Assembly: GCA_003168265.1 (NCBI GenBank)
Contig: PMSV01000019.1
Coordinates: 186,001 to 250,000 of the forward strand
Origin: Chitinophagaceae bacterium
Lineage (GTDB): Bacteria; Bacteroidota; Bacteroidia; Chitinophagales; Chitinophagaceae
DNA: 64,000 bases
Direction of reading: 5' to 3'
In this document: piece after piece, positions 13,032 through 20,198 of the stretch
Layout: each line of letters starts with the position of its first letter
How positions within the stretch are numbered: position 1 is the stretch's first letter
Program-made: the position numbers and the translations under genes
Notes under the pieces: generated by a model
Seen by the model: only the letters and a program-made list of their open reading frames with translations
Told to the model about the DNA's origin: nothing
Database searches by the model: none

Positions 13032-13298
13032 TTATTTGCCGCTCTTCTTGTCTTTGTTTTCCTTAAAACGTTTGTCGGCTGTTCCATCCTTTTTCAAGTG
13101 AGTTGTCGCAGGTTTAGCCTTTGCGGCGTCTTTATTTGCCTTATAGCGCATATCCGGTGTTCCGTCTTTTTTAGTTCGCGCAGCGGTAGTTTTTGCAGTA
13201 GTCGACTTGGGGGTATCCTTCTTCGGAGAGCTCGTCTGGGCCGTAGAAATACCTGCAAAAGCGAAGAAAAGGCTTGCAATCAGAATAAACTTTCTCAT
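13032..13298 (-). CDS. Small exported Lys/Ala-rich protein with duplicated KKDGT motif
   Basis: An 88-aa protein with a signal peptide (about residues 1-20, ending STAQ), a low-complexity Thr/Lys/Ala linker, and two copies of a motif of the form KKDGTxDxRYKxNKD at about residues 43-58 and 68-82. It is strongly basic. Proteins of this kind are common in Chitinophagaceae but have no known function. It is transcribed divergently from the histidine kinase gene across a 226-bp region; a lone TTAACT (13325-13330) lies 27 bp upstream of its start codon. Confidence 0.75.
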   Translation of the reverse strand: MRKFILIASLFFAFAGISTAQTSSPKKDTPKSTTAKTTAARTKKDGTPDMRYKANKDAAKAKPATTHLKKDGTADKRFKENKDKKSGK

Positions 13299-13420
13299 AA
13301 TGTTTTAAGTTTTTTTGTAAGAGATTAACTGCTATGAAGATATCCAAATCCATTCCTTCTGCAAGAAAAATTTAATCTAAAAGCAGGAAACTGGATAGAT
13401 TACATCTTATGCCTGCTCGT

Positions 13421-13470
13421 CTTAACTTAGGCTTAACTAAGTTCTTCTGTTAACTTGCACTTAACTAATT
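13421..13470. promoter_or_regulatory. Two pairs of 11-bp direct repeats, candidate OmpR-type operator
   Basis: Four TTAACT hexamers start at 13422, 13433, 13450 and 13461. The units are CTTAACTTAGG, CTTAACTAAGT, six spacer bases, GTTAACTTGCA and CTTAACTAATT. So two pairs of 11-bp repeats recur at a 28-bp period. OmpR/PhoB-family regulators bind 11-bp direct repeats as head-to-tail dimers, and the gene downstream begins a kinase/OmpR-type regulator operon 55 bp away. Autoregulation is inferred. Confidence 0.65.
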
Positions 13471-13524
13471 ACTTCCTCATCCCGGAATAAAGGGTGCCAA
13501 TTTTGCAGGAGCAATTCTTTTATC

Positions 13525-14804: not shown

Positions 14805-15509
14805 ATGTCTATACAAAAAGGTAAAGTATTGCTGGCCGAGGATGATCTGTCGCTGGGTTATGTAATTAAAGACAATCTTACAGATGCGGGTTACGATGTG
14901 GTTTTATGCCCCGACGGCCAGACCGCTATCGATAAATTTGACAAAAACGAGTACAATATTTGTTTGCTCGACGTTATGATGCCGCATAAAAACGGATTCG
15001 ATGTGGCCAAGAAGATCAGGCAGCAATCGGATATGGTTCCCATCCTGTTTCTGACTGCAAAATCCCTGGAGGAGGATCGGATCAAAGGATTTGAAGTCGG
15101 TGCGGACGATTATATCATCAAGCCGTTCAGCATGCAGGAATTGCTTATGCGAATGGACGTTTTTTTGCGAAGGAGCAAAAAAATGCATTCTGAGCAATCA
15201 CTGAATTTCAATATCGGTAAACTCAGGTTTCATTATACAGACCTTAAATTATCGATCGATTCACAGGTATTCAACCTGACCCAGAAAGAGGCCGATCTCC
15301 TTAAATTCTTGTGTCAGCACCCAAACCGGATTTTGAAAAGGGAAGAAGTGTTGCTGAATGTATGGGGAAAGGACGATTATTTTTTGGGTAGGAGCATGGA
15401 TGTATTCATTACCAAGCTCAGAAAATATTTCAAAGAAGACCCGCAGGTTAATCTTGAAACTATCCATGGAGTTGGATTTCGTTTTAATGTACCCCCCGAA
15501 GACGAGTAA
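14805..15509 (+). CDS. OmpR/PhoB-family response regulator
   Basis: A 234-aa regulator. The receiver domain has the acidic pair D13-D14, phospho-acceptor D56 in LLDVMMP, the conserved Thr in LFLTAKS and Lys in YIIKPFSM. The C-terminal winged helix runs from about 140 to 232 and ends in the usual ETIHGVGFRFN. It is translated from the same transcript as the kinase. The 11-bp repeats upstream of the kinase gene suit this family's binding mode. RprXY-type pairs of Bacteroidota are a possible relation, not proven here. Confidence 0.93.
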   Translation: MSIQKGKVLLAEDDLSLGYVIKDNLTDAGYDVVLCPDGQTAIDKFDKNEYNICLLDVMMPHKNGFDVAKKIRQQSDMVPILFLTAKSLEEDRIKGFEVGADDYIIKPFSMQELLMRMDVFLRRSKKMHSEQSLNFNIGKLRFHYTDLKLSIDSQVFNLTQKEADLLKFLCQHPNRILKREEVLLNVWGKDDYFLGRSMDVFITKLRKYFKEDPQVNLETIHGVGFRFNVPPEDE

Positions 15510-15877
15510 TCGTATTTCGGAACATTATTTTTATGAACCCCTTCCGGGCATGGCATCAAAATCCATTTGCCGGGAAATTCTATCCCGATTCCGATATTCT
15601 CGTCAAACTACTTAGATTTGTAGAGATTGAGATCAAGCACTTAGTCAACCTCAGCCGGAATTTCCGTTCCTTGACCAATTTATTCCGACGGAACACTTAA
15701 ACAAAAGATTTGAGCAATCCGGGTAATCCCGGTTTGCATTTGGCAGCTTTTATCGCCGGAATAAGCCATTAGAATAATGACGCAGATAGAGTGGCGGCTA
15801 TGAGGTACAAATTGGCAAATCCCGGGACTTATTGCATGTTCATCTCAATCGTTCGTCCGAAAGTATCAATTCATCAT
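15510..15877. other. Gene-free region between the regulator and the efflux adaptor
   Basis: About 370 bp with no convincing gene and no strong terminator. TAGATTTG at 15613-15620 matches the -7 consensus but lacks a spaced TTG and would leave a 250-nt leader. An upstream in-frame extension of the adaptor (to 15791) has no signal-peptide character and was not used. Confidence 0.4.
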
Positions 15878-16996
15878 ATGACAAAGAATTTGACAAAAAA
15901 TTTGAAAACCGGCCTTTACTTCCTTTTAGTTTTCCAACTGACATTTTTTCTTGCTTTTTCCTGCAAGCATGAAGAAGAGAATAATAATAACAACAAAGCC
16001 CATTACGTAATTCCCGATTCCATAATGAAAACGATCCTGGTGGACACTGTTAAAAAGCGTGAATTGGTCAATTCCATCACTTTAACAGGCCAGGTGGATT
16101 TCAACCAGGACAATGTGGTGAGAATCTATCCTATGATCAGCGGCAATATACAAGACATCAAAGTTGTACTCGGGGACTATGTGCACGAAGGCCAGTTACT
16201 GGGTGTCGTCAAAAGCATGGAAATGGCTGGTTATAGCAATGACCTTATCAATGCCGAGACTAATCTCAATGTCGCTCAAAAGAACCTGGATAAGACAAAA
16301 GATATGTTGCAGAGCGGCCTCGCCTCTGTTGCCGATTCGTTGAGTGCGGAAGCCGCTTTTCAACAGGCAAAATCGGAATTGAACAGGGTAAACAGGGTGC
16401 TCAAGATCAACGGTGGAAATACCTCCGGAGAATTAGAAGTGAAGGCGCCGATCAGCGGGTTCCTCGTAGAGAAAAATGTAAACAACAATACAACCATCCG
16501 GGCCGATAATGGGAATAATTTATTTACGATTTCCAATTTAAAAAATGTCTGGATCTGGGCGAATGTTTATGAGTCAAACATTAGCAATATCCATCTCGGA
16601 GACCAGGTTGATGTTTCAACTCTCTCCTATCCAGGTCGAAATTTTCCGGGAAAGGTAGATAAGATCATGAATGTATTGGACCCATCTAATAAGGTCATGA
16701 AGGTCAGGGTCGTGCTGGACAATCCCGATTATATTTTAAAGCCGCAGATGTTTGCCAGTGTGACAGTCGTGAACAGGGAACACAGGCAATGCCTGAGTAT
16801 TTCCTCCCATGCGCTCATATTCGACCATAGTCAGTATTATGTACTGATTTATAGCAGTCGTAGCGATGTACGCATTACTCCTGTTCAATTGATCGGAAGT
16901 TATGGGGATAAAGCCTATTTACTATCCGGGGTAAAGGAAGGAGACCATGTCATTTCTTCCCAGGCCATCCTGATTTATGACGCATTAAACAGTTAG
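15878..16996 (+). CDS. RND efflux periplasmic adaptor lipoprotein
   Basis: A 372-aa membrane-fusion protein that would bridge the inner-membrane pump and an outer-membrane channel. The N-terminus ends in the lipobox LAFSC, so the mature protein is a lipoprotein starting CKHEEE and an Asn run. After it come the lipoyl half-motif region (YPMISGNIQDIKVVLGDYVHEGQLLGVVKS), an alpha-helical hairpin of moderate length (about 135-185), the second lipoyl half and beta-barrel domains, typical of CzcB/CusB-like adaptors. The ATG at 15878 was chosen because it gives a proper signal peptide. The pump gene starts 22 bp downstream. Confidence 0.88.
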   Translation: MTKNLTKNLKTGLYFLLVFQLTFFLAFSCKHEEENNNNNKAHYVIPDSIMKTILVDTVKKRELVNSITLTGQVDFNQDNVVRIYPMISGNIQDIKVVLGDYVHEGQLLGVVKSMEMAGYSNDLINAETNLNVAQKNLDKTKDMLQSGLASVADSLSAEAAFQQAKSELNRVNRVLKINGGNTSGELEVKAPISGFLVEKNVNNNTTIRADNGNNLFTISNLKNVWIWANVYESNISNIHLGDQVDVSTLSYPGRNFPGKVDKIMNVLDPSNKVMKVRVVLDNPDYILKPQMFASVTVVNREHRQCLSISSHALIFDHSQYYVLIYSSRSDVRITPVQLIGSYGDKAYLLSGVKEGDHVISSQAILIYDALNS

Positions 16997-17018: not shown

Positions 17019-20000
17019 ATGAACAGATTTCTTAGAAAGATCATAGCATTTTCACTTAAGAACAGGTATTTTATAATTTTCGCCGCCTTGGCCTTGCTGG
17101 TGGCTGGTATTATCACTTTCAGAAATATGCCCATTGAAGCATTCCCTGATGTGACCAATACGGAGATTACCATTATTACCCAATGGCCGGGTAGGAGCAC
17201 CGAAGAGGTGGAAAAGTTTGTTACGATCCCTATCGAGATCGCGATGAATCCGGTCCAGAAAAAAATATCCCTGCGCTCCACTACTATTTTCGGCCTTTCC
17301 TTCGTCAAACTCATTTTCGACGACGCGGTCAAAGACCCTGAAGCAAGGCAGCAGGTTATGAACCTTCTTCCGAATGCCAATCTGCCAAACAATGTTCAGC
17401 CTTCGGTGCAGCCCCCGACAGGCCCAACGGGGGAAATCTTTCGCTATACGTTGCAAAGCAGTTTTCGGGACGTACGTGAATTAAAAACCATTCAGGATTG
17501 GGTCATCGATCGTCAATTGCGATCTATCCCGGGAGTTGGAGATATCAATAGTTTCGGAGGAAAGACCAAGACATATGAGATCCAGGTGGATCCCGGCAAA
17601 CTCACTTCATTGGGCATTACGCCTCTGGATGTATTCACCGCCGTACAACGAACCAATATCAACATTGGGGGAGATATGATCATTGAAAACAACCAGGCCT
17701 ATGTGGTAAGGGGAATCGGCTTATTGAATGATATCAATGAGATCAGAAACATCGTAGTCACGAATACTAACGGGATACCTGTCCTGGTGAAGGATGTAGC
17801 CCAGGTGGTTATTTCGAATGTACCCAGGCTGGGCTGGGTGGCCAGATCGAATGGCTTAATTGATTCAACGGGAAAAAGAGTGGTGACCGATGAGCCCGAT
17901 GTAGTGGAAGCCATCATAGTGATGAGAAAGGGAGAAAATCCTACCAAGGTAGTCAACGCGATTAAGGCCAAAGTAGATAAACTCAATAGCTTTACTCTCC
18001 CTGAAGACACCAAGATGGTGCCTTATTATGACCGATCGGATCTGATCAAATATGCGACCCACACTGTATTGCACAACCTGGTGGAGGGTATCCTTCTGGT
18101 GACCCTGCTGGTTTCGCTTTTCATGTTCAACTGGAGGACTACCCTGATCGTTTCGATCATCATACCATTGGCCCTGCTCTTTGCCTTTATCTGTCTGCAT
18201 CTCATGGGAATGTCCGCCAACCTGCTATCGCTGGGAGCTGTGGATTTCGGTATCATCATCGACGGAGCTGTGGTCATGGTGGAAGGCATGTACGTGGTGC
18301 TGGATCACCGGGCAATGGAGATTGGCATGGAGCGCTTTAACAAGATCGCCAAATACGGAATGATCAAGACTCACGGAGCACAACTTGGGAAAGCCATCTT
18401 CTTTGCCAAACTGATTATCATTACGGGGCTGATTCCAATATTCTCTTTTGAAAAAGTGGAGGGAAAGATGTTCTCTCCCCTGGCATATACCTTGGGATTT
18501 GCACTGCTAGGAGCCCTGATCACGACGCTGACCCTGGTGCCTGTTCTGATCAGCATGTTGCTGAGCAAGAACGTAAAGGAAAAACACAATCCTTTCGCCC
18601 ATTATCTCTTTGGTTTCATGCTCAAAGGTTTTGTAAAATCCTTTAAGAATAAGGAAATCGTTGTGATCGTTTCTTTTATAGCCATGGCAATTGGCTTGTA
18701 TTCATTTAAATTCCTGGGAAGTGAATTCCTTCCTCAACTCGATGAAGGATCGATCTGGCTCCGGGTTCAGACTCCTTACAGTATTTCTCTGGACAAATCC
18801 GTAGAAGTGGCCAAAAATGTCCGTGATGTATTGATGGGTTTTCCGGAAGTGAAATATGTTGTTTCTCAAACCGGTCGCCCTGATGATGGAACCGACGTAG
18901 CCGGCTTCTATAACAATGAATTTTCAGTTATGCTTTATCCGGAAGGGGATTGGAAAAATAACATCGATAAGGACGAATTGATCGACCAGATGAATAAAAA
19001 ATTATCGGTCATACCGGGTACGGATCTGAACTTTTCACAACCTATAATGGATAATGTGGAAGAAGCCGTATCCGGAGTAAAGGGTTCGATTTGCATGAAG
19101 ATCTTTGGGGATTCACTCGACTATATGGAGGACAAGATCAATCAGGCATATAATGTCCTGAAAGATGTACGCGGGATCGAAGACCTCGGTGTTATCCATA
19201 ATATCGGTCAACCCGAGCTGGATGTCAATCTGGATCAGCAAAAAATGGCACTCTATGGAGTGGCGACCGCTGATGCAAACGCAGTGGTCGCAATGGCCAT
19301 TGGGGGACAGGCTGCTTCTACCCTCTATGAGGGTTACAGGCTATTCGATATCCGTGTCAGGCTTCCGGAGCGATACCGAAAGACGGCAGATGATATCGGC
19401 AACCTCCTCGTGCCGACTCAAAGCGGATCGAAAGTTCCCATACGGGAGATCGCGACGATTGACATGAGAACCGGTCCTTGCCTGATTTTCCGCGACGATA
19501 ATGAACGATATGCCGCTTTGAAATTTTCTATTAGGGGTAGGGATATGGGCAGTACAATTGCGGAGGCGCAGGAAAAAGTCGGCAGGGCGGTTCCGCTGAA
19601 GAGAGGGTATACCATGGTTTTCCAGGGGGATTTCGAAAACCAGCAAAGGGCTGAAAAAAGGCTGAGCGAAGTGGTCCCGATCAGCCTGCTATTGATCTTC
19701 CTGCTTTTATTTGTCATGTTCGGTAATTTGAAAGACGCCGGACTTGTTTTTTTAAACGTGCCCTTTGCCATTGTAGGGGGTCTGATTTCACTTCACCTTA
19801 CCGGAACGAATTTCAGCATTTCGGCGGGTATCGGTTTCATTGCCTTATTTGGAATATGCATTCAGGACGGAGTATTGCTGATAACGGTCTTCAAACAAAA
19901 CCTGGAAAAAATAAAAGGACAAAAGTCATCTTTATATACTGCGATCAAGCTGGGTGTAAATTCAAGGATCCGGCCTGTGATGATGACTGCACTGATGGCC

Positions 20001-20198
20001 GCGATCGGTCTTTTACCTGCGGCTCTTTCTCATGGTATAGGTTCCGAAAGTTCCAGGCCTCTGGCCCGAGTTGTGATCGGGGGAATTCTTTGCGCCATGA
20101 TATTTTCACTCTGGGTATTCCCGTTGATATTTGGATGGGCTTACAGAAGGATTGATAAACAACCGCTAGTAGCGCCGCCTAATGAACCGGTTGCATAA
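17019..20198 (+). CDS. CzcA/CusA-type heavy-metal RND efflux pump
   Basis: A 1059-aa proton antiporter of the inner membrane. TM1 (about 12-32) is followed by the large porter domain, and the TM4 block AVDFGIIIDGAVVMVEGMYV carries the paired Asp and Glu characteristic of heavy-metal efflux (HME) RND pumps rather than drug pumps. The second half repeats the fold from about residue 540, with GTNFSISAGIGFIALFGICIQDGVLLI near 930. It forms an operon with the adaptor. No outer-membrane factor (TolC type) gene lies nearby. The ion transported cannot be decided from these residues alone. Confidence 0.9.
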   Translation: MNRFLRKIIAFSLKNRYFIIFAALALLVAGIITFRNMPIEAFPDVTNTEITIITQWPGRSTEEVEKFVTIPIEIAMNPVQKKISLRSTTIFGLSFVKLIFDDAVKDPEARQQVMNLLPNANLPNNVQPSVQPPTGPTGEIFRYTLQSSFRDVRELKTIQDWVIDRQLRSIPGVGDINSFGGKTKTYEIQVDPGKLTSLGITPLDVFTAVQRTNINIGGDMIIENNQAYVVRGIGLLNDINEIRNIVVTNTNGIPVLVKDVAQVVISNVPRLGWVARSNGLIDSTGKRVVTDEPDVVEAIIVMRKGENPTKVVNAIKAKVDKLNSFTLPEDTKMVPYYDRSDLIKYATHTVLHNLVEGILLVTLLVSLFMFNWRTTLIVSIIIPLALLFAFICLHLMGMSANLLSLGAVDFGIIIDGAVVMVEGMYVVLDHRAMEIGMERFNKIAKYGMIKTHGAQLGKAIFFAKLIIITGLIPIFSFEKVEGKMFSPLAYTLGFALLGALITTLTLVPVLISMLLSKNVKEKHNPFAHYLFGFMLKGFVKSFKNKEIVVIVSFIAMAIGLYSFKFLGSEFLPQLDEGSIWLRVQTPYSISLDKSVEVAKNVRDVLMGFPEVKYVVSQTGRPDDGTDVAGFYNNEFSVMLYPEGDWKNNIDKDELIDQMNKKLSVIPGTDLNFSQPIMDNVEEAVSGVKGSICMKIFGDSLDYMEDKINQAYNVLKDVRGIEDLGVIHNIGQPELDVNLDQQKMALYGVATADANAVVAMAIGGQAASTLYEGYRLFDIRVRLPERYRKTADDIGNLLVPTQSGSKVPIREIATIDMRTGPCLIFRDDNERYAALKFSIRGRDMGSTIAEAQEKVGRAVPLKRGYTMVFQGDFENQQRAEKRLSEVVPISLLLIFLLLFVMFGNLKDAGLVFLNVPFAIVGGLISLHLTGTNFSISAGIGFIALFGICIQDGVLLITVFKQNLEKIKGQKSSLYTAIKLGVNSRIRPVMMTALMAAIGLLPAALSHGIGSESSRPLARVVIGGILCAMIFSLWVFPLIFGWAYRRIDKQPLVAPPNEPVA

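Follow-up and report, generated by a model that had tools for sequence, protein, structure and literature searches.

Paired TTAAC direct repeats as a putative operator of a sensor kinase/OmpR-type regulator operon in the Chitinophagaceae

The intergenic region between a divergent gene for an 88-residue protein and a kinase/OmpR-type regulator operon, in the 64,000-nucleotide stretch of a Chitinophagaceae genome analysed here (the window), carries two pairs of head-to-tail TTAAC repeats. Judged from their recurrence in related sequences, these repeats are a real and strongly conserved control site and not a product of chance. The pair recurs in front of orthologous kinase genes, stands at a preferred distance from a promoter element and is found again, in relatives, before efflux genes adjoining the regulator gene. 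We consider it probable that an OmpR/PhoB-type regulator uses the site as its operator. The operon's own regulator is the likeliest candidate; it would autoregulate its operon and co-regulate the efflux genes.

On the forward strand TTAACT starts at 13422, 13433, 13450 and 13461, where the initial annotation had placed four hexamers, giving two pairs offset by 28 bp; a lone copy starts at 13325. The repeated flank claimed for the second member of each pair is also present, as CTTAACTAA at 13432-13440 and 13460-13468. TTAACT-N5-TTAACT has two matches in the window and none in each of 100 shuffles, and the genome-wide search that had been suggested returned two matches in the whole 4,301,747 bases, both at this region, with four for a reversed-pattern control. 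No enrichment is seen for the bare hexamer within the window (17 copies, 28.8 expected) or for the bare pair TTAAC-N6-TTAAC genome-wide (12 matches, 33 reversed controls). Hence the evidence rests on the doubling of the pair and on its conservation.

The region lies downstream of secDF and upstream of genes for an RND adaptor and a pump of the heavy-metal RND efflux family (Table 1). Both domains of the regulator score above their cut-offs (PF00072, 92.6 bits; PF00486, 66.9 bits), as in OmpR/PhoB-type proteins. The adaptor gene more likely starts at the in-frame ATG at 15878 than at the listed position. A search of plasmids with the intergenic DNA gave no match, and one with the regulator gave 14 records, all below 60% identity.

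Table 1. Features of the repeat region and the adjoining genes (window coordinates).
Feature	Position	Strand	Basis or remark
Divergent 88-aa secreted protein, KKDGT(P/A)D repeats	13032..13298	-	ORF
Lone fifth TTAACT, judged outside the operator	13325..13330	+	No counterpart in relatives by eye
-7-like element TATCTTCA of the divergent gene, inferred	13335..13342	-	Loose pattern in window and relatives
Upstream operator pair, putative, 28 bp upstream of the proximal pair	13422..13438	+	Repeats; more than one pair in 31/76 loci, spacing varies
Promoter-proximal operator, putative, TTAACT-N5-TTAACT (conserved core TTAAC-N6-TTAAC)	13450..13466	+	Repeats, conservation
-7-like promoter element CAATTTTG, beginning 48 nt after the proximal pair begins	13498..13505	+	Sequence
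Sensor histidine kinase, 421 aa	13525..14790	+	Pfam HisKA, HATPase_c above cut-off
OmpR/PhoB-type response regulator, 234 aa, RprY-like	14805..15509	+	Pfam Response_reg, Trans_reg_C
RND periplasmic adaptor	15791..16996 (as listed)	+	TIGR01730, 151.1 bits (cut-off 94.9)
CusA/CzcA-family RND efflux pump	17019..20198	+	TIGR00914, 885.6 bits (cut-off 701.45)

Orthologous kinase loci were collected from 58 genomes (40 matched at E 1e-60, 30 loci taken) and from the genome itself, and further ones were reached through the regulator (best 80 of 149). A region upstream of the kinase gene was obtained for 107 of the 112 loci; L072 starts off its contig, and the others gave none. Removal of L026 and L044, with only 5 nt upstream, and of regions identical over 200 nt left 76 loci with kinase identities of 43 to 100%, among which near-identical relatives remain. 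The kinase upstream sequence of L029 (genome G009, from the genus of the window) equals that of L042, a Puia dinghuensis record, over the stretch displayed, which puts the organism close to Puia within the Chitinophagaceae.

In 71 of these 76 non-redundant loci TTAAC-N6-TTAAC lies no more than 300 nt from the kinase start; mononucleotide shuffles of the same regions gave a mean of 0.065 loci with a pair and at most one. The N6 spacing accounts for 102 matches and every other spacing from 0 to 15 for 0-4. Loss of the hexamers in related species had been named as evidence against the initial annotation, and the relatives examined show the opposite. The proposed 11-bp direct-repeat operator before the operon is therefore supported, with a change of unit: since the sixth base varies among relatives, we rejected the TTAACT hexamer in favour of the 5-mer TTAAC at an 11-bp repeat. 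Members of the OmpR/PhoB family as a rule bind direct repeats as tandem dimers, according to the available text of PMC4832192 and PMC4415409, and TTAAC-N6-TTAAC has the 11-bp period of such operators. A chance repeat in an AT-rich intergenic region, which the lack of enrichment of the hexamer and of the bare pair might suggest, is contradicted by this conservation and has a negligible probability in our estimate.

More than one pair is found in 31 of the 76 loci. The 28-bp offset between pairs is not general, as only L075 and L077 among these 31 come near it, with 29 bp. Four of the five kinase promoters that lack the exact pair keep one TTAAC with a degenerate partner, AAAAC or ACAAC, 11 bp before it. 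The exact pair is absent from the 260 nt upstream in 12 more distant kinase loci, of which ten belong to other families and two to G033, a genome of the same family; in two of the 12 (L193 and L200) inspection by eye shows GTTAAT or TGTTAAA words spaced about 11 bp.

The pair stands mostly at a few preferred distances from the promoter. The -7 element of the Bacteroidota is TAnnTTTG at -12 to -5 (PMC6847099, as far as its text was available). In the kinase promoter of the window the pair at 13450 is followed by the element at 13498 and a predicted start at 13510. Measured in the kinase promoters from the start of the pair to YAnnTTTG, the distance is 48 nt in 32 cases, 49 nt in 6 and 58 nt in 10, and all other distances together account for 12. 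A scan of the genus for the pair with YANNTTTGC at 28-58 nt returned 60 rows in 33 genomes (two places, in G018 and G021, being listed twice with overlapping matches) against 7 for the reversed pattern. The distances cluster at 28 and 48-50 nt, 56 of the 60 fall at 28-30, 38-40, 48-50 or 58-59 nt (35% expected), and the resultant R is 0.84 at a period of 10.5 with a null maximum of 0.42. Similar scans gave 65 rows in 117 genomes of the family (13 controls) and, for the rest of the order, 42 rows from the 86 genomes scanned in other families (12 controls). Of the family rows, the 59 outside the genus, six same-genus rows being left out, have an R of 0.62 (null maximum 0.43) with 46 in phase; in the order 23 of 42 distances are 48-49 nt and R is 0.85. 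As the rows are related by descent, these R values are not probabilities. The genome of the window has four sites accompanied by a -7 element and three controls.

These steps of about one helical turn argue for an activator. Integral-turn spacing would fit a protein touching the polymerase, and a simple repressor would not need it. In five Puia-like relatives (L019, L021, L024, L029 and L030) the -7-like element begins 13 nt before the kinase ATG, so that their mRNA would be leaderless or nearly so.

The same site is coupled to efflux genes next to the regulator gene. In 35 of the 80 regulator loci used (the best of 149), an outer-membrane efflux gene in the same orientation lies no more than 1500 nt from the regulator, and membership of the OEP family was confirmed for one of these genes. 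Where the gap is 75 nt or less no site intervenes (0/7), and where it is larger a site is present in 27 of 28 loci, the sole exception, L038, being just 35% identical to the query. Co-transcribed efflux genes, which would need no site of their own, appear to lack one, and those that would be separately transcribed appear to have one. With a shorter search stretch the site was found in 26 of 34 loci with an efflux gene next, against 3 of 44 with another gene or no gene called next; this table covers 78 of the 80 loci (L071 and L072 left out), and at L100 the stretch searched stopped too soon. At the 26 efflux sites, the two bases that follow the second TTAAC are mixed (CG 8, AT 8, others 10). 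In the window, the outer-membrane efflux gene that is common behind the regulator in relatives is absent between regulator and adaptor (15510-15877), and a search from 15510 to the adaptor gene that allowed up to two mismatches found no site.

The initial annotation had further suggested that the region may control the divergent gene and had pointed to the fifth TTAACT in front of it. The encoded protein has no match in Pfam or NCBIfam; a homologue was found in 27 of the 76 loci, divergent every time. The lone TTAACT falls at the predicted leader start of this gene, just downstream of its -7-like element. Inspection by eye showed no counterpart there in any relative, though isolated GTTAA words occur near the start in L018, L075 and L077. 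We therefore discarded it as a site for this gene. The wider suggestion keeps some support from the upstream pair. In nine relatives an upstream pair is accompanied by a divergent-strand element fitting TA..TT[CT][AG], at distances of 43, 53, 54, 54, 54, 55, 63, 63 and 74 nt, which differ by steps of roughly one helical turn; such phasing is reached by 0.2% of random draws of six, in a small and related sample and with a period of 10.3 chosen afterwards. The corresponding distance in the window is 95 nt, in phase. L019, L075 and L077, with two pairs each, have no divergent-side element by this pattern. Control of the divergent gene by the upstream pair is thus plausible on the basis of these spacings.

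As to which regulator binds, the genome of the window contains 14 matches to the regulator, seven of them covering both receiver and DNA-binding domain, and among these seven only the regulator of the window has the exact pair upstream. Another full-length match (L256) is preceded, at 66 nt, by a degenerate TTAAT-N5-TTAAT, and at L253 a TTAAC-N5-TTAAC lies far from the regulator gene. Further sites stand before batD (Pfam BatD) and before an outer-membrane barrel gene (Pfam OMP_b-brl_2), including in the same genome at 38 and 27 nt, respectively. These sites imply that the regulator of the window alone cannot explain every site. In five genomes with batD-like or barrel-gene sites (G058, G079, G105, G140 and G143) the best match to the regulator is only 43-46% identical, which argues that another protein reads them. 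Presence of the regulator at E 1e-70, found in 60 of 117 genomes with at most 24 candidates scored per genome, did not separate the genomes with sites from those without.

Several other sites stand before unrelated genes or no gene. Within the gene families named here, members other than those with a reported Pfam match were named by inspecting the sequence. A "glycerophosphodiesterase-like" name for a gene with a site in two genomes of the genus was not borne out, there being no Pfam match. Within one family subclade (L235 1452-1970 and 14 loci among L259-L274), a TTAAC pair precedes the -7 element of an ArsR/SmtB-type gene by about 58-60 nt. The ArsR-like gene was matched in 115 of 117 genomes; of the 30 best loci fetched 26 were readable, and the 15 with the pair all belong to the subclade closest to the query. 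Two of these 15 genomes stand out: G117 lacks the regulator at E 1e-70, and the kinase promoter of G033 is without the pair. For these reasons and because of the subclade restriction, this site was dropped as a co-occurrence test for the regulator.

We judge binding by the operon's own regulator the likeliest on these sequences, with PhoB next. Several observations count against own-regulator binding, namely the 42 matches in the 86 genomes of other families, the 12 distant kinase loci and five of the 76 kinase promoters without the exact pair, and the near-equality of sites and controls in the window's own genome. The main rival is that the pairs are Pho boxes bound by PhoB, which would place the operon and the neighbouring efflux genes in a phosphate-starvation regulon. 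The promoter of the genome's own pst operon has TTAACA-N5-GTAATA-N5-TTAACA starting 48 nt before the -7-like element TTCTTTTGC, with similar repeats at the same distance but with one degenerate half-site and different flanking bases. In other families the pair stands before six PhoB-like genes, a pstC gene scoring above its cut-off, two porin-like genes (one confirmed as Porin_O_P, the second named by inspection) and others, and in three genomes of the genus before a PAP2 phosphatase gene (one confirmed by Pfam). The pst and PhoB-related sites may place that of the window in the Pho-box type, and PhoB may be the binder. However, the bases after the second TTAAC differ, being AT (7) or AC (2) at nine hand-chosen phosphate-gene sites but AT or AC in only 4 of 71 kinase promoters, which mostly have CA or AA (TA in the window), in a comparison confounded by its span across different families. 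PhoB is the best NCBIfam match of the two PhoB-like genes scored (219 and 223 bits), yet these two and the PhoB-like regulator of the window's genome (238 bits) remain below the cut-off of 296. Moreover, the coupling of the site to the regulator's own neighbours is more simply explained by a local regulator. We regard the PhoB reading as unlikely, though a serious rival.

The pst cluster in question comprises pstC (above cut-off), an ABC ATPase and PhoU, with pstS and pstA by inspection; a name tried for its first gene was not borne out, with no Pfam match. Its putative Pho box, three repeats at 11-bp spacing with a degenerate middle one, lies at C14:357696-357752 (L320 17696-17752).

The TTAAC repeats might also be a shared operator, read by the operon's regulator, an RprY-like paralogue (C14:476334) and perhaps PhoB, which would integrate several signals. 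The stretch that we take to be the recognition helix, placed in both RprY-like regulators from the structure of the family, is near-identical in the two (GRSMDVFITKLRKYF and GRSMDVYIAKLRKYL), and some genomes without a close orthologue of the window's regulator nevertheless have batD-like and barrel-gene sites. The paralogue, the closest one, scores higher as RprY (302 against 260.5 bits, cut-off 370). Similarity of the helix would not, however, fix specificity, and we hold a shared operator to be improbable.

If binding by the operon's own regulator is correct, the four hexamers would form two head-to-tail operators of 11-bp period for a dimer most likely encoded by the second gene of the operon. 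The proximal pair covers roughly -60 to -45 relative to the predicted start at 13510, and phosphorylated regulator bound there would contact RNA polymerase and activate the kinase-regulator operon, in positive autoregulation. The same site before efflux genes adjoining the regulator gene of relatives would let system and pump respond together. The upstream pair would probably make binding stronger and may, in relatives, act on the gene for the divergent small protein. As a tentative generalisation, which could well be wrong, TTAAC-N6-TTAAC placed whole helical turns upstream of the -7 element, mostly at 48 nt, may be an order-wide architecture of activator promoters that several related regulators read, PhoB at phosphate genes and RprY-like proteins at envelope and efflux genes; the operon studied here would be a branch controlling itself and a metal-type efflux pump. 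The site of the operon predicts both target genes and, through its helical phasing against the unusual Bacteroidota promoter, an activating mechanism, and a handful of flanking bases might tell PhoB from RprY-like regulation.

In kind, the system is ordinary and has known counterparts. The open-licence literature available, mostly abstracts, contained no operator motif for any Chitinophagaceae two-component system and no Pho-box sequence for the Bacteroidota, which may still be in print. PhoP boxes of B. subtilis are TTAACA-like. The Pho box of PhoB consists of two 11-nt direct repeats bound head to tail (available text of PMC4415409, in which the word TTAACA does not occur), an architecture resembling that at the genome's own pst operon; Pho boxes have been predicted by computation (PMC4796936, available part), and the accessible portion of PMC3547664 describes B. 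fragilis PhoB with no sequence motif. The window differs from the phosphate-gene sites examined in its flanking bases, and the genes served here are a two-component operon and efflux genes. With CusRS/CzcRS-type systems it shares a two-component operon beside a CusA/CzcA-family pump, but its regulator reaches only 141.4 bits, below the CzcR/SilR/CopR subfamily cut-off of 279.2. CusR sites are palindromic, in contrast to the direct repeats found here. RprY (NF051850) is the best NCBIfam match of the regulator, whose 260.5 bits fall short of the curated cut-off, and we therefore did not adopt the name. The words motif, consensus and repeat are absent from PMC6032018, and the available part of PMC3646045 gives no binding motif for RprY. 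RprY of the RprXY systems of Bacteroides and Porphyromonas is likewise an OmpR-type regulator of the Bacteroidota, and that of P. gingivalis binds its own promoter in mobility shift assays (PMC3646045, available part).
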